Shown: positions 15,661 through 46,260 of the stretch, piece after piece
Position numbering within the stretch: position 1 is the stretch's first letter
Layout: each line of letters opens with the position of its first letter
NCBI GenBank assembly: GCA_961205875.1
Contig: OY540812.1
Span: 12,586,001-12,650,000, forward strand
Length of the DNA: 64,000 nt
Reading direction: 5' to 3'
Source: Sialis fuliginosa
Taxonomy: Eukaryota; Arthropoda; Insecta; Megaloptera; Sialidae
Program-made: the position numbers and the translations under genes
Notes under the pieces: generated by a model
Databases searched by the model: none
Seen by the model: only the letters and a program-made list of their open reading frames with translations
What the model was told of the DNA's origin: nothing

Positions 15661-16670
15661 CAGAGCCGGCGCCCTGTGCGAGATTTATTTTTCCGCCCTC
15701 TTTCCCCTTAAAAAGATCACCGAAAATGTCAATTAAAATTGATAAATTAACAAATAATTTGAATAGTTGATATCTCAGCTTGGTGCGATCCTACAGACTC
15801 CAACTTTTTTTTAAAATATAGCTTACATCATTAACTTTAAGACTGTCAAATGCCCTAAGACCGTCGATACCCCTTTCCCCTATTATTAAGAAATTAAAAA
15901 AATGATAAATTAACAAATAAGTTGAATAATTAATATGTCAGTATATCATCTCACACATTTTTTAACGACTCTGATGAAAAAAAAATCATAGAACTTAATT
16001 TATACTAGACTACATTACGAATAATTTAACAGATCAAAACTAGAATGATTGATTGACCATATCTACTTAATAATTAAATATAGTGAGTTCATTTTTAATT
16101 TCTTTTCTTTGTAATTTTATAGAGAACAAAAAGTATTTACAATTTTGATTGATTTCGCGATAGGGTTGCAGTTAAAACACAAAACGTGAAAAATCGTACA
16201 TATACATATGTGCATTTTCTAATACATTTTTCAGCTCTGGGGATTGGCCTAACAGTGCTTGTACTTTTTTCATAAAAATGAATCATTTTTAGAAGAATTT
16301 GAAGAAAATATTTAAGAAAAATAGATAGTTTGAAAAAATAAACATTAACAATTAACCTTTGCTCTAAAATACCTTATTAAAGGTTTTCTGGGTTGCTGAG
16401 TAAGGATTTGTTAGTTAGCAGCTATCAAATCAAAATAAATTTCATAGAATTTAAAAAAAATTAACTTTGTTTATATTTAGCAATATTTTTTTGCTAAATC
16501 GGGTTTAACAGATCGACAAAAAATTTAAAGATTAAAAAAAAGTTTATTAAAAAATTACAGCCTGCACACTGATTTTAACCAAAAAAGTCACTTATGTCCC
16601 ATTGTGCGCCGCCCCACCTGGTCTGGTGCCCCGGGGGGTCGCACTGGTTTCCCCCCTAAAGCCGGTGCTG
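15661..16670. mobile_element. hAT element, 8-bp TSD CGTACGTC; satellite progenitor family
   Basis: The 1010 bp element starts CAGAGCCGGCGCC and ends AAAGCCGGTGCTG. A perfect duplication CGTACGTC lies at 15653-15660 and 16671-16678. No transposase frame remains. The interior holds two diverged direct sub-repeats (about 15720-15815 and 15880-15985). The reverse complement of 15747-15842 aligns with the satellite monomer of 40678-45101. The CAGAGCCGGC terminus is the same as that at 39007. Confidence 0.85.
15747..15842 (-). repeat. Satellite-homologous segment inside the hAT element
   Basis: Read on the minus strand it contains TCTTAAAG, GTAAGCTA, TTTTAAAAAAAA, GGAGTCT, GATCGC and CCAAGCTGAGATAT in the same order and spacing as the ~184 bp array monomer. 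By eye about 80-85% of bases match over ~95 positions. It is a single unit here rather than an array. Confidence 0.8.
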
Positions 16671-26700: not shown

Positions 26701-28614
26701 ACTGGAAAGTATTGAACAAAAACGATATAAGAATGTTCAGTTCTTTTTAAGTTTTTCAATTTAAAACAAGTATAATATATGTAATGAATTTTCTTGGAAA
26801 TATTAAAATCAAAATATATTATTTTATCCTTGTATTAAAGTAGTAAAAATAAAAAATCTTATTAAAAACCAACATTTGATTAAATGATCTAAGTTTACAT
26901 TTTTTAAATGGGATTTATGTATTTTTTTGGAGATTATGTGATTTAAACTAGATACATATTAAAAAATTCCACGAACTTTACCAAAATATAATTTTATTTT
27001 GAATAAAAAAAAGAACAACAATAAATTAATATACTTACTTATACTTATGTACTTTCGAATATCATATATGAGTATGATGATATTATCTTTATCGGAATTT
27101 CATTTAATCATATAAAAATGTACTCTTACTAAAATATATGAAGCAGGCATCCTTGAAGTAAATGAAAAGAATCTTTTATTTTGTTAGATTGAAAAGAAGT
27201 CCTTTGTGGCCCATATTAGTTTGTAAGGGAATCTCGAATCACTGAAACGTTGTCAATGATGTTTTACCCTAGTTCTTGAATAGTTGTAGGTTTAACTGAG
27301 AAAACTTTGTTTTGTAAGTCTCTCTAAAACTACTGATCTAAAGGATTTTGGTTAGGTTGTCATGAATGAAGTTATTTATGATTCTAACTCTTGATATATA
27401 TCTATTCCTACAATTTCGTATGACTTATTGTTAGATTATTATCGTCAGAAAAGTTTATACACGCATTGGTGTCTTCAATATGATTTGAACCTAATTGAAA
27501 TACAATTTACAGTTTATTGATATAAATACAAACGAAATATTTAAAAATTAAATAGTGGAAAGTTCTTATATGATTTGGTGGGTGTGCGGGGGGAGAGTGG
27601 TAGCGATTATATATTGACGACTTAACACATGAGAACTGAGACACATAAATCTTAAACACAATTTAAAACCCACAAAATATGCCATTATAATATTACACAA
27701 CATATAAAATACGATTATATCTAGCTACGCCAATTAGTAAATGGAAACGATCCAAGGCGGGCTAGATCGCGAGTGACGTTATCGCTGTTTGATACTCTGC
27801 ATTTACATTCATGACTGACACCGAAAATTAGATTCCCATAATACGGTTTCCGAGAAATAATGTTTGCAAACGAAAAAGAAGACAAAAACAATAACAGTAG
27901 CATCAAACGAAATGAGAAACTCGAACACACACATACATATGTACATAAATATACATATGTATGTATGCACATACACAAACACATATGTAGAAACAGATAC
28001 ATTATATATATATTATACATATATACAAGCGTGTAGATATTGCTCTTTACAATACAGAAACGGAATGAAAAAGGTTACATTATTAGGATGGATGTTTTAT
28101 CTGCATGGCGTTATAAGTTATTTTATGTTTTTGATTTTACAATAAAACTTATTTGGTCGTGTCTTAAATTATTTTTTTGCGTTCTATCAGTTAGATATAT
28201 ACATATTTTTATTTTCTTATACCTATATATACATAATATGTATAGTATAAGTAATAGTGAAGTCGATTTTTTTCGAAATCCGAATTTTTATGAAATTATC
28301 CATTTTGATCTTTCCTGAATACATTCTGACTATTTTCGCCATGATGTCTGTAAACGCTGCGCTGTACAAACAAATCGTAGAAGAATGAAATTTTATATTT
28401 AAGGTTAATTTTTGTCTGGGAAGAAAACATAATATTTTTGAAAACGATCTTTCAACCGGATACGGATGTTTACCTACGTCGATTTTTGAATTTTTCGAAT
28501 TATAGTGCGAAATAGAGAAAAATGGTCAAGTTAAAAATTGTAGGTAATATTATTATCTATAGTTTATGTTCTATTATTTTTTTCGAAAAAACGAATTTTT
28601 GAAAAAAATTAATT
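26701..28614. other. Unannotated; includes ATGT/CACA simple repeats
   Basis: 27925-28025 is a degenerate ACATATGTATGT/ACACAC simple repeat that generates the spurious ORFs on both strands around 27721-28145. Nothing else was recognised. Confidence 0.4.
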
Positions 28615-28970
28615 ATAATTCAAATGGTTCATAACAGAGGACCTTCTTATATTTATTACAGAGACTGAACAGTGTGGGTGATTCTAAATAATTATTAAAA
28701 AAAATATTTCTGACTAAATCATAAATGTTGGAAAAAAATGTATGGGGAATAAATTATAGATAATAATATAATCGACATTTTTTATCCATAACATTTTTAT
28801 TTTATTTCAAATTTGGTAGTTATTACATATTAAAAAAATCATAGGATACAAAATGTAGAAAATAATAATAATAGTTTATGTTTTAATAAAATAAGAATTG
28901 CGTACACTGTTCACTGTCAGGATTACGTATAAGAAAGTCCCGTGGCTCCCATGGAAGATATTTTAATTTG
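28615..28970. repeat. Dispersed repeat shared with 40.3-40.5 kb
   Basis: 28615-28795 is the reverse complement of much of 40272-40525 (TTCATAACAGAGGA, TGTTGGAAAAAAATGTATGG). 28902-28970 repeats the same end in the other orientation (ACTGTTCACTGTCAG, ACGTATAAGAAAGTCCC). It therefore forms a small foldback with ~45 bp arms. Confidence 0.6.
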
Positions 28971-38470: not shown

Positions 38471-39006
38471 GCTTCTGTAGATATTTTTGAACTTGTGTTT
38501 ATATAAATTGTACAATAAAAATAAGATATCAGTAATAATTGTAAATGAAAACAACACTTCATTTTTTCGAATGTTTAATTTTTATAGTTGGTTTCTGCGT
38601 TTGAAAGCAGACTAAGTAACGATTGAATAAATGATATGAAGAACATACGTAATAGAAAATACATTTTTTTTTAAATATCAACATTGTAACATTTTGAAAT
38701 GAAATTTTTGCATGTTGAATGAAACAAAAGTAAAATATTGCATACTACAAAGATTTTAAAAAAAATTTAATGTAGGGTAAAGTGAGTTAAATGCAAATTC
38801 TGTATAATAATAAACAGTTTTCCATCTCTTGAAAGTTTTAAATATTTTATTTTATTTATTTTAAAGTTCCCAATAAAAAAATTTATTTAAAATTGTGAAT
38901 TTTATTTCTGTAGCTACTAATTAAATATAATTCACTAGTAAATGGTACTGCAGTTTATTGTTTTATTTTTTTAACTTTTGATACATGAGATGTTTTGTAT
39001 TCTATC

Positions 39007-39685
39007 CAGAGCCGGCCTTTGCGATTTTTTTTGACGCCCCCCCACCCCCCTCCACCGCCACAGTGACGATCATTAAAAATTATCCGCACAAAAAAAAAAA
39101 AAAAGCGTGAGAAAATTATCTTGTTATTAATTCATTAGTGTAATATAATAATATAATATAACATATAATTGATAAATAATATATAATATAACTAAAATTA
39201 TATAAAAGATTTCTTCCTGGCTTTCATATCTGCAAAATTATCGATTGCTGTCTCAAAATTGAGGTTTGCTACAACCTTATTTTCAATTGAAAGAATAGCC
39301 AAATTATTCAACCTATCTTCTATCATAGCCGATTGCAAATAAGTTTTTATGAATTATTTTAATTTACTAAAACTTCTTTCACCACTAGCTACACTAACCG
39401 GAATTGTTACAAGAATTAGCAAAGCCACCCACAGATTTGGCACTGTGCTTTTCAAGTTTTGTAAAAAAATGTTTAATAAATAATTTATTTTTGATATTAA
39501 GCATTTTATTAAGTAAAATGAATTATTTTGCAGAAAAAATCAAAACTATTATTCAAAATATATATATAGCTTAAATTTGGCGCCCTAGAACAGAACATAG
39601 AAAAAAAGTTTAAAATAATTGGCGCCCCCACGAAATTAGCGCCCCAGGCTGTCGCCTGGGTCGCCTGGCCGTTCGGCCGGCCCTG
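39007..39685. mobile_element. hAT derivative, copy 1 (intact ends)
   Basis: It has both termini, CAGAGCCGGCC and GGCCGGCCCTG. Only its left flank carries ATTCTATC; the right flank is a T-run. It carries a C-rich run near the left end and a relic of the transposase C-terminus. It is nearly identical to copy 2. Confidence 0.85.
39198..39467 (-). pseudogene. hAT transposase C-terminal (hATC) relic, copy 1
   Basis: The minus strand reads LKSTVPNLWVALLILVTIPV then SVASGERSFSKLK, a stop, then FIKTYLQSAMIEDRLNNLAI and LSIENK, ending MKARKKSFI and TAA. The SVASGERSFSKLK plus downstream LAILSIE pattern marks the hAT dimerisation domain of TTF-finger/ZMYM1-like transposases. The in-frame stop after SKLK and the absence of the catalytic N-terminal part make it non-functional. 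It would be the 3' end of an ancestral autonomous gene. Confidence 0.85.
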
Positions 39686-40271
39686 TTTTTTTTTTACTTA
39701 TCCAAGTATTAAACCAATCTATAGATTCTAATAAATTGAAAATTTATCAATAATGATGAACGGATGGCATATTAAAAAAAATATATTGTTACATTCATCA
39801 GAGTAACCGTTTTTTTAAATTAGAGCGAATTGTCGCTGAAGAAGTATCGACTATCGTCTAATTTTTATAATACGCGTGATTTTGCTAATTAACTTTTTGT
39901 ATAGTGTTTACCAGGTATGTACATTGTGATTCATATTATTTATTTGATTTTTTTGTTTCGGTTCTGATATTTATGTAATGGTTTTTATTTGTTAACGTAT
40001 GTTTACATCATGCACTTGTCGAAAGAGCAATAAAACTAAGTTTTGTTAACGAATGTACATATCCTCATTGTTTATAGTTAATAATAATTATATAATTTAT
40101 AAAAATATAATTTTAATAATAAAAAAAAGGTAATATTATTCTCTCCATTATATAACAAGTGATTTTTTTTAACGTAATAACTGAAATCAGATGTTTACTC
40201 TTGTAAATTTTTGAATTAACGAATTATTTTTGAATTAAGAAAAAATGTTTTAAATAAAAAATGTCGAGTAT
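39686..40271. other. Unique AT-rich spacer inside the composite
   Basis: No homology to other parts of the window was noticed. It starts with a T-run directly against the hAT terminus. Confidence 0.4.
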
Positions 40272-40525
40272 GTTATTATCTATAATTTATTCCCTATACA
40301 TTTTTTTCCAACATTTATAATTTAGCCAGAAAGAAATTTTTTATGTAATTATTTAGATTCACCTACACTGTTCACTATCAGTATTACGTATAAGAAAGTC
40401 CCATGGTACCTATGGCAAACAAGCACACTGTTTAATCTCTGTACTACGTATAAGAAAGTCCCATGACACTCATGGCAGATATTTCTCCTCTGTTATGAAC
40501 CATTTGAATTATAATAAAACTGCAT
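40272..40525. repeat. Dispersed repeat with duplicated ACGTATAAGAAAGTCCC motif
   Basis: It is the reverse complement of 28615-28795, but with an extra ~60 bp tandem duplication (about 40372-40432 and 40433-40490). Each duplicate holds ACACTGTT and TACGTATAAGAAAGTCCCAT. The motif also appears at 28922-28945. Confidence 0.6.
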
Positions 40526-40664
40526 GACGTTAACATTTGTTTACAAAGTCAAAAAAATGAAATAAACTTTTATTTTCAAAAAAAGATTTTTTTTACTATT
40601 TTTCCCTTAAATCTAGCCTACTTCTGCTTCAAAAAATTAATATTTCGTTAAAATAAAAAAAATC

Positions 40665-40681
40665 ATGCAATTAAGGGTTAA
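40665..40681. repeat. TTAA-adjacent inverted motif, left of array
   Basis: ATGCAATTAAGGGTTAA is the inverted counterpart of the motif right of the array. CCCTTTAATTGC next to TTAA looks like a piggyBac-type terminus, here oriented as the right end of an element lying to the left. Confidence 0.4.
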
Positions 40682-43600
40682 AGATAATAGTGTAAGCTAC
40701 ATTTAAAAAAAAACTGGAGTCTCCTCGATCGCGCCAAGTTGAGATATTAACTATTCAATTTACTTCTTTGTTAGCGTATGAGTTTTAGTTTGTTTTTTTA
40801 GTTTTAACTTGTTTTTAAAAAGGGAAGGAGCACGCGAAGGTCTTTAAGTGCGTGATGCTCTTAAAGATAATAGTGTAAGCTACATTTTAAAAAAAACTGG
40901 AGTCTCCTCGATTGCACCAAGCTGAGATATTAACTATTCAATTTACTTCTTTGTTAGCGTATGAGTTTTAATTTGTTTTTTTAGTTTTAACTTGTTTTAA
41001 AAAAGGGAAGGAGCACGCGAAGGTCTTTAAGTGCGTGATGCTCTTAAAGATAATAGTGTAAGCTACATTTAAAAAAAAAACTGGAGTCTCTTCGATCGCG
41101 CCAAGCTGAGATATTAACTATTCAATTTACTTCTTTGTTAGCGTATGAGTTTTAATTTGTTTTTTTAGTTTTAACTTGTTTTTAAAAAGGGAAGGAGCAC
41201 GCGAAGGTCTTTAAGTGGGTGATGCTCTTAAAGATAATAGTGTAAGCTACATTTTAAAAAAAACTGGAGTCTCTTCGATCGCGCCAAGCTGAGATATTAA
41301 CTATTCAATTTACTTCTTTGTTAGCGTATGAGTTTTAATTTGTTTTTTTAGTTTTAACTTGTTTTTAAAAAGGGAAGGAGCACGCGAAGGTCTTTAAGTG
41401 CGTGATGCTCTTAAAGATAATAGTGTAAGCTACATTTAAAAAAAAAACTGGAGTCTCTTCGATCGCGCCAAGCTGAGATATTAACTATTCAATTTACTTC
41501 TTTGTTAGCGTATGAGTTTTAATTTGTTTTTTTAGTTTTAACTTGTTTTTAAAAAGGGAAGGAGCACGCGAAGGTCTTTAAGTGCGTGATGCTCTTAAAG
41601 ATAATAGTGTAAGCTACATTTAAAAAAAAAGCTGGAGTCTCTTCGATCGCGCCAAGCTGAGATATTAACTATTCAATTTACTTCTTTGTTAGCGTATGAG
41701 TTTTAATTTGTTTTTTTAGTTTTAACTTGTTTTTAAAAAGGGAAGGAGCACGCGAAGGTCTTTAAGTGCGTGATGCTCTTAAAGATAATAGTGTAAGCTA
41801 CATTTAAAAAAAAAACTGGAGTCTCTTCGATTGCGCCAAGCTGAGATATTAACTATTCAATTTACTTCTTTGTTAGCGTATGAGTTTTAATTTGTTTTTT
41901 TAGTTTTAACTTGTTTTTAAAAAGGGAAGGAGCACGCGAAGGTCTTTAAGTGCGTGATGCTCTTAAAGATAATAGTGTAAGCTACATTTTAAAAAAAAAC
42001 TGGAGTCTCTTCGATCGCGCCAAGCTGAGATATTAACTATTCAATTTACTTCTTTGTTAGCGTATGAGTTTTAATTTGTTTTTTTTTAGTTTTAACTTGT
42101 TTTTAAAAAGGGAAGGAGCACGCGAAGGTCTTTAAGTGCGTGATGCTCTTAAAGATAATAGTGTAAGCTACATTTTAAAAAAAAACTGGAGTCTCTTCGA
42201 TCGCGCCAAGCTGAGATATTAACTATTCAATTTACTTCTTTGTTAGCGTTTGAGTTTTAATTTGTTTTTTTAGTTTTAACTTGTTTTTAAAAAGGGAAGG
42301 AGCACGCGAAGGTCTTTAAGTGCGTGATGCTCTTAAAGATAATAGTGTAAGCTACATTTTAAAAAAAAACTGGAGTCTCTTCGATCGCGCCAAGCTGAGA
42401 TATTAACTATTCAATTTACTTCTTTGTTAGCGTATGAGTTTTAATTTGTTTTTTTAGTTTTAACTTGATTTTAAAAAGGGAAGGAGCACGCGAAGGTCTT
42501 TAAGTGCGTGATGCTCTTAAAGATAATAGTGTAAGCTACATTTAAAAAAAAAACTGGAGCCTCTTCGATCGCGCCAAGCTGAGATATTAACTATTCAATT
42601 TACTTCTTTGTTAGCGTATGAGTTTTAATTTGTTTTTTTAGTTTTAACTTGTTTTTAAAAAGGGAAGGAGCACGCGAAGGTCTTTAAGTGCGTGATGCTC
42701 TTAAAGATAATAGTGTAAGCTACATTTAAAAAAAAAAACTGGAGTCTCTTCGATCGCGCTAAGCTGAGATATTAACTATTCAATTTACTTCTTTGTTAGC
42801 GTATGAGTTTTAATTTGTTTTTTTAGTTTTAACTTGTTTTTAAAAAGGGAAGGAGCACGCGAAGGTCTTTAAGTGCGTGATGCTCTTAAAGATAATAGTG
42901 TAAGCTACATTTTAAAAAAAAAGTGGAGTCTCCTCGATCGCGCCAAGCTGAGATATTAACTATTCAATTTACTTCTTTGTTAGCGTATGAGTTTTAATTT
43001 GTTTTTTTAGTTTTAACTTGTTTTTAAAAAGGGAAGGAGCACGCGAAGGTCTTTAAGTGCGTGATGCTCTTAAAGATAATAGTGTAAGCTACATTTAAAA
43101 AAAAAACTGGAGTCTCTTCGATCGCGCCAAGCTGAGATATTAACTATTCAATTTACTTCTTTGTTAGCGTATGAGTTTTAATTTGTGTTTTTTAGTTTTA
43201 ACTTGTTTTTAAAAAGGGAAGGAGCACGCGAAGGTCTTTAAGTGCGTGATGCTCTTAAAGATAATAGTGTAAGCTACATTTTAAAAAAAAACTGGAGTCT
43301 CTTCGATCGCGCCAAGCTGAGATATTAACTATTCAATTTACTTCTTTGTTAGCGTATGAGTTTTAATTTGTTTTTTTAGTTTTAACTTGTTTTTAAAAAG
43401 GGAAGGAGCACGCGAAGGTCTTTAAGTGCGTGATGCTCTTAAAGATAATAGTGTAAGCTACATTTAAAAAAAAAACTGGAGTCTCTTCGATCGCGCCAAG
43501 CTGAGATATTAACTATTCAATTTACTTCTTTGTTAGCGTATGAGTTTTAATTTGTTTTTTTAGTTTTAACTTGTTTTTAAAAAGGGAAGGAGCACGCGAA

Positions 43601-45101
43601 GGTCTTTAAGTGCGTGATGCTCTTAAAGATAATAGTGTAAGCTACATTTAAAAAAAAAAACTGGAGTCTCTTCGATCGCGCCAAGCTGAGATATTAACTA
43701 TTCAATTTACTTCTTTGTTAGCGTATGAGTTTTAATTTGTTTTTTTAGTTTTAACTTGTTTTTAAAAAGGGAAGGAGCACGCGAAGGTCTTTAAGTGCGT
43801 GATGCTCTTAAAGATAATAGTGTAAGCTACATTTAAAAAAAAAACTGGAGTCTCTTCGATCGCGCCAAGCTGAGATATTAACTATTCAATTTACTTCTTT
43901 GTTAGCGTATGAGTTTTAATTTGTTTTTTTAGTTTTAACTTGTTTTTAAAAAGGGAAGGAGCACGCGAAGGTCTTTAAGTGCGTGATGCTCTTAAAGATA
44001 ATAGTGTAAGCTACATTTAAAAAAAAAACTGGAGTCTCTTCGATCGCGCCAAGCTGAGATATTAACTATTCAATTTAGTTCTTTGTTAGCGTATGAGTTT
44101 TAATTTGTTTTTTTAGTTTTAACTTGATTTTAAAAAGGGAAGGAGCACGCGAAGGTCTTTAAGTGCGTGATGCTCTTAAAGATAATAGTGTAAGCTACAT
44201 TTAAAAAAAAACTGGAGTCTCTTCGATCGCGCCAAGCTGAGATATTAACTATTCAATTTACTTCTTTGTTAGCGTATGAGTTTTAATTTGTTTTTTTAGT
44301 TTTAACTTGTTTTTAAAAAGGGAAGGAGCACGCGAAGGTCTTTAAGTGCGTGATGCTCTTAAAGATAATAGTGTAAGCTACATTTAAAAAAAAAAACTGG
44401 AGTCTCTTCGATCGCGCCAAGCTGAGATATTAACTATTCAATTTACTTCTTTGTTAGCGTATGAGTTTTAATTTGTTTTTTTAGTTTTAACTTGTTTTTA
44501 AAAAGGGAAGGAGCACGCGAAGGTCTTTAAGTGCGTGATGCTCTTAAAGATAATAGTGTAAGCTACATTTAAAAAAAAAACTGGAGTCTCTTCGATCGCG
44601 CCAAGCTGAGATATTAACTATTCAATTTACTTCTTTGTTAGCGTATGAGTTTTAATTTGTTTTTTTAGTTTTAACTTGTTTTTAAAAAGGGAAGGAGCAC
44701 GCGAAGGTCTTTAAGTGCGTGATGCTCTTAAAGATAATAGTGTAAGCTACATTTTAAAAAAAAACTGGAGTCTCTTCGATCGCGCCAAGCTGAGATATTA
44801 ACTATTCAATTTACTTCTTTGTTAGCGTATGAGTTTTAATTTGTTTTTTTTTAGTTTTAACTTGTTTTTAAAAAGGGAAGGAGCACGCGAAGGTCTTTAA
44901 GTGCGTGATGCTCTTAAAGATAATAGTGTAAGCTACATTTAAAAAAAAAACTGGAGTCTCCTCGATCGCACCAAGCTGAGATATTAACTATTCAATTTAC
45001 TTCTTTGTTAGCGTATGAGTTTTTATTTGTTTTTTTAGTTTTAACTTGTTTTTAAAAAGGGAAGTAGCACGCGAAGGTCTTTAAGTGCGTGATGCTCTTA
45101 A
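40678..45101 (+). repeat. Satellite array, 24 units of ~184 bp
   Basis: Counting successive GATAATAGTG starts gives 24 units with periods of 183-186 bp (mostly 184); length changes lie in A and T runs. Array and units are bounded by TTAA. Each unit has GGAGTCTC(C/T)TCGATCGCG, CCAAGCTGAGATATTAAC, and a closing imperfect hairpin GAGCACGCG...GCGTGATGCTC. Units are nearly identical. Edge units carry variants: units 2 and 24 have GCACCAAG where the core has GCGCCAAG, and GCACCAAG is also the state in the hAT at 15.8 kb. The pattern is that of core homogenisation with older edges. There is no coding potential. Confidence 0.95.
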
Positions 45102-45115
45102 CCCTTTAATTGCAT
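45098..45115. repeat. TTAA-adjacent inverted motif, right of array
   Basis: TTAACCCTTTAATTGCAT mirrors the motif at 40665-40681. It resembles a piggyBac-type left terminus pointing away from the array. Confidence 0.4.
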
Positions 45116-45180
45116 CTTGTTAACATTCGTGAACAATGTTTTCAGAGGTATCTATTAGCAAAAATGTACAATATTTTTTA

Positions 45181-45862
45181 GCCTTTGCGATTCTGGCGCC
45201 CCAGGCGAGATTTCTTTTGACGCCCCCCCCCTTTCCATCGCCACAGTGACGATCATTAAAAATTATCCGCACAAAAAAAAAAGCGTGAGAAAATTATCTT
45301 GTTATTAATTCATTAGTGTAATATAATAATATAATATAACATATAATTGATAAATAATATATAATATAACTAAAATTATATAAAAGATTTCTTCCTGGCT
45401 TTCATATCTGCAAAATTATCGATTGCTGTCTCAAAATTGAGGTTTGCTACAACCTTATTTTCAATTGAAAGAATAGCCAAATTATTCAACCTATCTTCTA
45501 TCATAGCCGATTGCAAATAAGTTTTTATGAATTATTTTAATTTACTAAAACTTCTTTCACCACTAGCTACACTAACCGGAATTCTTACAAGAATTAGCAA
45601 AGCCACCCACAGATTTGGCACTGTGCTTTTCAAGTTTTGTAAAAAATTTTTAATAAATAATTTATTTTTGATATTAAGCATTTTATTAAGTAAAATGAAT
45701 TATTTTGCAGAAAAAATCAAAACTATTATTCAAAATATATATATAGCTTAAATTTGGCGCCCTAGAACAGAACATAGAAAAAAAGTTTAAAATAATTGGC
45801 GCCCCCACGAAATTAGCGCCCCAGGCTGTCGCCTGGGTCGCCTGACCGTTCGGCCGGCCCTG
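45181..45862. mobile_element. hAT derivative, copy 2 (left end truncated)
   Basis: It lacks the first 8 bases of the terminus (CAGAGCCG) and starts GCCTTTGCGATT. Near its left end it keeps an extra CTGGCGCCCCAGGCGAG block that copy 1 lacks. From there to GGCCGGCCCTG it is almost base-for-base identical to copy 1. Its right flank carries ATTCTATC. Confidence 0.85.
45376..45645 (-). pseudogene. hATC relic, copy 2
   Basis: The same hATC-domain relic as in copy 1, including the same stop after SKLK. One difference is Arg for Thr in ILV(T/R)IPV. The plus-strand ORF at 45527-45751 is its antisense shadow. Confidence 0.82.
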
Positions 45863-46260
45863 ATTCTATCATTGGTCGATGTGCAAATATATTTTTATTG
45901 TTGTACTAGCCTCGAATAGCTGTCACTCTATTTTCATATATTTAGAAACTCTAAAAATAACCGTGTAAGTGTTACGATAGTTTTATAGAAGGAAGTTTGC
46001 ATTTATTTCACTTTACCCTAAATTTTTTCTAATAAATGCTTTAGAATTCAGATAGTATCCGCAGTTGAAATACACATTTAAACTCTACAATTCAACAAAC
46101 TCTTCTATTTCAACAAAAACTATTTAAAATCAATAAAATCATACATGATACATATTCAATTAAAATGCAAATATTATTTATATCTTACAGATAATAATCC
46201 GTAACAAATGCACATTCTAAACCGATCGGTAGGATTTCAGAAAGTAGCAGGAACAAGTCC

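Follow-up and report, generated by a model that had tools for sequence, protein, structure and literature searches.

Structure of the locus

We analysed a stretch of 64,000 nucleotides from Sialis fuliginosa (C4:12586001-12650000, referred to throughout as the window), which lies within the 392-Mb genome of 20 contigs used here for all genome-wide matching. The subject is a satellite array that sits in the window between two copies of a hAT transposon, the whole being flanked by a perfect 8-bp target-site duplication. On the plus strand, the left duplication ATTCTATC stands at 38999-39006, immediately 5' of the left hAT end CAGAGCCGGCC (starting at 39007), and the right duplication, again ATTCTATC, at 45863-45870, immediately 3' of the right hAT end GGCCGGCCCTG (finishing at 45862). 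This octamer occurs four times on the plus strand of the window and not at all on the minus strand, and two random 8-mers of the window agree by chance with a probability of about 1.4e-4. Elements of the hAT superfamily duplicate 8 bp of target and carry short terminal inverted repeats, CAG...CTG, and the two outer ends form such a hAT-type pair, with one mismatch in 11.

Between the outer octamers lie, in this order and all on the plus strand, a left hAT copy (hAT-L), a T-run with about 1 kb of sequence, 24 satellite units, 79 bp and a right hAT copy (hAT-R). Read from end to end (CAGAGCCGGCC...GGCCGGCCCTG), hAT-L (39007-39685) is a non-autonomous hAT with both termini; about 20 bp close to its left end, present in seven other left ends compared, are missing. 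On its minus strand it retains a remnant of the hAT transposase C-terminus (PF05699, 39357-39539, E 1.9e-6, 28 bits against a cut-off of 21.4), in a broken frame whose adjoining piece gives nothing above the cut-off. By comparison with other loci, the next segment (39686-40677; T-run, ACTTATCC ... CATGCAATTAAGGG) is the right part of a piggyBac-like element and the 79 bp beyond the array (45102-45180; CCCTTTAATTGCATC ... ATATTTTTTA) are its left part. The array (40678-45097) consists of 24 head-to-tail units of 183-186 bp with 98% matches, each beginning with TTAA. Its first four letters are the TTAA adjoining the piggyBac-right end and a further TTAA (45098-45101) was read at its junction with the piggyBac-left part; the array, of a unit of about 184 bp, begins and finishes at TTAA. 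The last segment, hAT-R (~45181-45862), is the same hAT in direct orientation, 97.4% identical to hAT-L across 666 columns, with a damaged left and an intact right terminus. The original prediction had described a 4.4 kb, 24-unit array inside a 6.86-kb hAT-ended structure, with ATTCTATC just outside both outer ends, and both the arrangement and the coordinates are confirmed.

The recipient of the insertion is an older repeat (38773-46021, no strand assigned), recognised by a 29-nt inverted pair at its ends (TAGGGTAAAGTGAG.../...CACTTTACCCTA, 90% complementary). Four of the 45 matches to the flank (L036-L039) were chosen because they span the insertion point, and all four align through that point without the insert, at 80, 71, 79 and 70% identity respectively. 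They show ACCATA or a similar sequence at the position of TCTATC in the window, so that the target is similar, but not identical. In the window, neither Rfam, used at its gathering thresholds, nor ARAGORN with the bacterial code gave a match, and a Pfam scan of five window frames gave none above the cut-off.

Other copies of the composite

A query with hAT-L gave 470 first-look candidates, 40 of which were scored. The 20 best places outside the window (L009-L028) were read over 10 kb each, with shorter cuts of seven of them (L002-L008), and L029, L030 and L035 were selected for their unusual junctions. The hAT, the piggyBac-right part and the array follow one another in the same order at all 20 loci, the piggyBac-right part being shortened in L014. 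The left end falls within the stretch read at 19 of them and was taken from L006 for L013. On the other side, the array is followed inside the stretch by the piggyBac-left part and hAT sequence at 16 loci and further out in L016 and L019; in L021 and L028, one shared deletion has removed the piggyBac-left part and most of hAT-R, of which about 156 bp remain. The order of the composite is hAT - piggyBac right - satellite - piggyBac left - hAT. Its size ranges from 3.7 to 21 kb and from 7 to about 100 units, the smallest copy being L010 (3.7 kb, 7 units) and the largest L016 (C6:12775331-12796379, 21 kb, with about 100 units as judged from its coordinates).

Together with the window copy and L035, and with the partial L029 and L030 set apart, 22 copies were examined, and in 21 of them both outer ends are legible, the right end of L015 being lost. 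The outer 8-bp duplications, transcribed by hand from the individual locus readings, are perfect in 19 of the 21 copies and comprise 18 distinct octamers; the remaining two (L009 and L026) match at 7 of 8 positions. L011 and L018 share one duplication (CCAATATG) and, because their flanks are 99.6% identical, were counted as one insertion carried by a larger dispersed repeat; the hAT-R of each is split by a different insert of about 0.9 kb. The right flank of these two copies was also seen in L029, directly 3' of a hAT. L021 and L028, with their common deletion junction, carry different perfect duplications, which indicates that the outer ends suffice and are what moves.

Searching for the unit elsewhere with different 8-bp duplications, as the original prediction had proposed, therefore gave a positive answer, and its reading of the locus as a composite, satellite-carrying hAT is supported both by these duplications and by the four target paralogues without insert. 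It is highly probable that the window structure is one copy of a dispersed family of composite (macro-)transposons of the hAT type. An assembly artefact, in which repeats were collapsed or misjoined, deserves mention since long near-identical arrays are difficult to assemble and the locus is known here from the assembly alone, but the order is constant across copies and 18 different 8-mers match at either end of arrays that range from 7 to about 100 units, which makes such an error scarcely credible.

The family extends well beyond the copies that were read. Pattern counts, which are complete for the stated mismatches, gave 177 satellite/piggyBac-left junctions and 154 piggyBac-left/right-hAT junctions genome-wide. 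Of the 154, 110 show the same damage to the inner left end of hAT-R and 44 have that end intact; set against the 177 junctions, the resolved inner states (110 + 44 + 3) leave 20 unclassified. L019, one of the 44 with an intact inner end, has a perfect outer duplication, and both kinds have therefore moved. In addition, 340 hAT left ends were counted by pattern, a figure that includes inner ones, while the window's own left end differs from the pattern.

One copy, L035 (C12:14903001-14913000), comprises four hATs and three arrays within one perfect outer duplication (CCTACAAT). Its internal deletions are partly common to its blocks, a pattern that is probably the expected product of unequal exchange between direct repeats. 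Two junctions only 7.5 kb apart (C5:15847157 and C5:15854686) may mark a further multimer.

The piggyBac-like element and the inner hAT duplication

The sequences bordering the window array end in similar inverted pieces (CCCTTTAATTGCAT and the like) that face outward from the array. When the two outer parts of the interior were joined without the hAT into a 173-nt query, two places in the genome matched across the join at 98%, and these (L033 and L034) were selected for that reason. Both contain an uninterrupted piggyBac-like element of about 1.05 kb, which lies, in the same unit phase, within arrays of this satellite. Elements of the piggyBac type duplicate a TTAA target and have inverted ends beginning with CCC. 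L033 has the corresponding ends, CCCTTAATTGCAT, on each side, and L034 differs by one change at the right; TTAA stands on both sides of the element in L034, and the left side in L033 is TTTA. A hAT-free piggyBac junction occurs at three places in the genome, and the two that were read are both within satellite. On the right side of L033 and the left side of L034, the satellite arrays adjoin other sequence that has no hAT ends. At 28465-28963 the window also has sequences related to the 60-bp repeats and to the right part of the piggyBac-like element, in both orientations and over short stretches, at 72-97% identity.

The hAT site is present once, as TTTTTTAC, in the uninterrupted element of L033 and L034. 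In the composites, TTTTTTAC-CAGA stands on the inner side before the right hAT in all 44 intact junctions, and hAT-L is trailed by extra T plus TTTTTTAC-TTATCC. Entry of the hAT into the piggyBac-like element thus produced an 8-bp duplication. Only remnants of this duplication are left in the window: TTTTTTA precedes hAT-R, and ten T plus AC follow hAT-L. The statement of the original prediction that the inner sides of the two hATs have no duplication accordingly holds for the window copy as it stands, but not for its ancestry, since these sides descend from the TTTTTTAC duplication.

The hAT-free element in the satellite and the inner duplication together show that the composite is the circularly permuted product of satellite, piggyBac-like element and hAT, with a second hAT on the far side. 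Such permutation around the hAT in the window, with the uninterrupted piggyBac-like element found elsewhere, could also be expected if, on a single occasion, a satellite/piggyBac circle had entered a resident hAT here by homologous recombination. Yet 20 other loci and L035 have the permuted unit too, nearly all with outer duplications of their own. A single integration at the window is refuted by these other sites and is very improbable as an account of the locus, although the founder event may have involved a circle.

Divergence between copies

In the piggyBac-right part the mean difference is 0.39% among 21 composites; L033 and L034 differ from these by 1.4-1.5%. At 12 of its columns, which comprise 5 substitutions and one 7-bp indel, a state missing from both L033 and L034 is shared by at least 80% of the composites. 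Within the hATs, for which only matches over 550 columns were used (20 left copies, 15 right copies and 14 pairs), the mean difference was 0.35% between left copies, 0.43% between right copies, 0.39% between left and right copies, and 0.30% between the two copies of the same composite.

These values bear on the most serious alternative, namely that ectopic recombination or gene conversion brought the interior (piggyBac right - satellite - piggyBac left) into solo hATs resident at many sites, whose outer duplications would then be older. A solo hAT with a perfect duplication of its own does exist (L042, CTTCTATG), direct hAT repeats seem to recombine (L035), and exchange between hAT-L and hAT-R would fit this alternative as well. 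Yet the hAT parts are no more diverse among copies than the piggyBac-right part of the interior, whereas the two other hATs that were read, L042 and L043, differ by about 14% and 4% (they were picked as stop-free and are no random sample). The common deletion junction of L021 and L028, found at two sites with different perfect duplications, also argues against it. We therefore regard this spread of the interior as unlikely, and the second reading of the original prediction, a resident hAT that gained its interior later, is likewise disfavoured, the hAT parts being no more diverse than the interior.

The satellite units

The 21 composite copies contain 426 satellite units, units outside 170-200 bp having been dropped from the comparison. 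They differ by 1.24% within a locus and by 1.28% between loci, the latter value being drawn from 6000 random pairs. The units at the two edges of the arrays are recognisable: a first-unit signature is present in 19 of 21 first units, as compared with 1 of 405 other units, and a last-unit signature in 15 of 17 last units, as compared with 3 of 409 others (the four arrays without a piggyBac-left end in the stretch, L016, L019, L021 and L028, were excluded from the latter test). Such signatures imply a single founder array for the close copies, whose arrays then changed in length internally.

A second, different hAT-like element (CAGAGCCGGC...GCCGGTGCTG), whose 8-bp duplication CGTACGTC is perfect, was noted in the window at 15661-16670. 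Part of this element is 81% identical to the satellite unit, and the satellite monomer may thus be derived in part from a hAT. Two further satellite-like units (88-90% identity, about 350 bp apart) lie at 24-142 and 386-491 of L040 (C8:1452800-1458300), at least about 1.1 kb away from a DUF4371-containing frame of 770 aa, and are older relatives of the satellite.

Proposed history of the composite

Three arrangements coexist in this genome: the hAT-free piggyBac-like element inside the same satellite, related hATs alone, and the permuted composite with its own duplications. The first steps are reconstructed as follows: a piggyBac-like element inserted into the satellite at TTAA, and a non-autonomous hAT then inserted into this element at TTTTTTAC. 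Recombination in the satellite array would have set two such piggyBac(hAT) units in direct orientation, and a hAT transposase acting in trans would have used the first hAT's left end and the second hAT's right end as a pair, everything between these outer ends then moving as one unit. Afterwards the number of units altered from copy to copy, a damaged inner left end marks the commoner subfamily, and one copy multimerised, probably through exchange between the direct hAT repeats. The origin of the first pair by satellite recombination and the route by which the copies multiplied are those that we infer.

Damage to the inner left end would leave the outer left end as the sole partner of the right hAT and so lock the pair together. 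We give even weight, for and against, to a broader proposal: that this is a natural eukaryotic composite family in which two non-autonomous hATs became one element by capturing a satellite, that the pair is locked by its damaged inner left end, that it multimerises via its direct terminal repeats, and that it is a main seeder of the satellite genome-wide.

Several points weigh against the composite family and its proposed history. The 20 loci read are the closest relatives of the window copy, the 19 other scored places being unfetched or partial (L029 and L030). The last-unit signature is absent from at least 32 of the 177 satellite/piggyBac-left junctions, so that descent from one founder array is supported for the close copies only. 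The tree that groups the composites apart from L033 and L034 has a support of 87/85, which is below the starred level. The cores of hAT-L and hAT-R show no fixed difference beyond the length of an A-run, which makes exchange between them possible and is also in keeping with spread of the interior into resident hATs. The motif CCCTTTAATTGCATS alone has 3 matches in the window (with up to 3 mismatches) against 3.65 expected, which is not above chance, and the meaning of the terminal motif comes from the other loci rather than from its frequency in the window. Finally, none of the loci read for this purpose (L040-L043) proved to be an autonomous relative whose ends match, and no tandem donor locus without an outer duplication was seen among the loci examined.

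The four candidate sources of transposase came from two domains: PF14291 gave 20 matches, two loci of which were read (L040 and L041), and PF05699 gave 613 first-look candidates, of which 150 were scored and two stop-free ones fetched (L042 and L043). Ends of the composite type were absent, with up to 1 mismatch, from the 5.5 kb around the DUF4371 frame of L040 (C8) and from the 5.5 kb read at L041 (C14). L040 and L041 were accordingly rejected as sources. L042 is a 633-bp solo hAT, and L043 a partial hAT whose match covers 504 bp and includes a right end, no left end having been found; none of the four is an autonomous partner.

Comparison with known systems

How satellites are dispersed to scattered sites is a standing question, and the composite shows a stepwise route. 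Every capture layer carries its own target duplication, the hAT-free piggyBac-like layer persists in the same genome, and more than 100 junctions provide a series on which array growth, the choice of end pairs and the effect of the damaged inner end can be measured.

The macrotransposons formed by Ac/Ds elements in maize are reportedly the subject of Huang and Dooner 2008 and Wang et al. 2022. In the part of PMC9910405 available to us, linked hAT termini from different maize elements are described as excising and reinserting as one unit, with an 8-bp footprint; in the part seen of PMC10175614, macrotransposons are merely cited. As in maize, the ends of different linked hATs here bound one large unit. 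Unlike the events followed at maize loci in that available account, ours is a natural family, with 154 resolved inner junctions, a satellite cargo and, in one subfamily, damage to the inner end.

Elements that carry satellites are known, from the available portions of the sources, among Helentrons, miniature inverted-repeat transposable elements (MITEs) and foldback elements (PMC12628747, PMC9659126, PMC4079207), with Helitron-like and MITE-like examples named as carriers in the first two. They include the Helentron CgHINE of oyster (PMC7492417; reviewed in PMC9659126), the MITE miDNA4 of Xenopus tropicalis (PMC9659126) and Tetris of Drosophila virilis (PMC4079207). In all of these, as here, a mobile element scatters an internal tandem array. 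CgHINE, miDNA4 and Tetris are, by the descriptions in those portions, single elements with an inner array, whereas our array is a captured cargo between two elements of the same family, and the steps of capture, first at TTAA and then at TTTTTTAC, are still legible, unlike in the three elements as so described. No satellite-carrying hAT composite was found in the literature, as judged by titles and the openings of abstracts, with subscription papers mostly outside the coverage.

In bacterial composite transposons, two copies of a small element bracket a cargo and move it jointly. Here too, a cargo is bracketed and moved by paired copies, but the copies are non-autonomous hATs and the cargo is satellite DNA together with pieces of another transposon.

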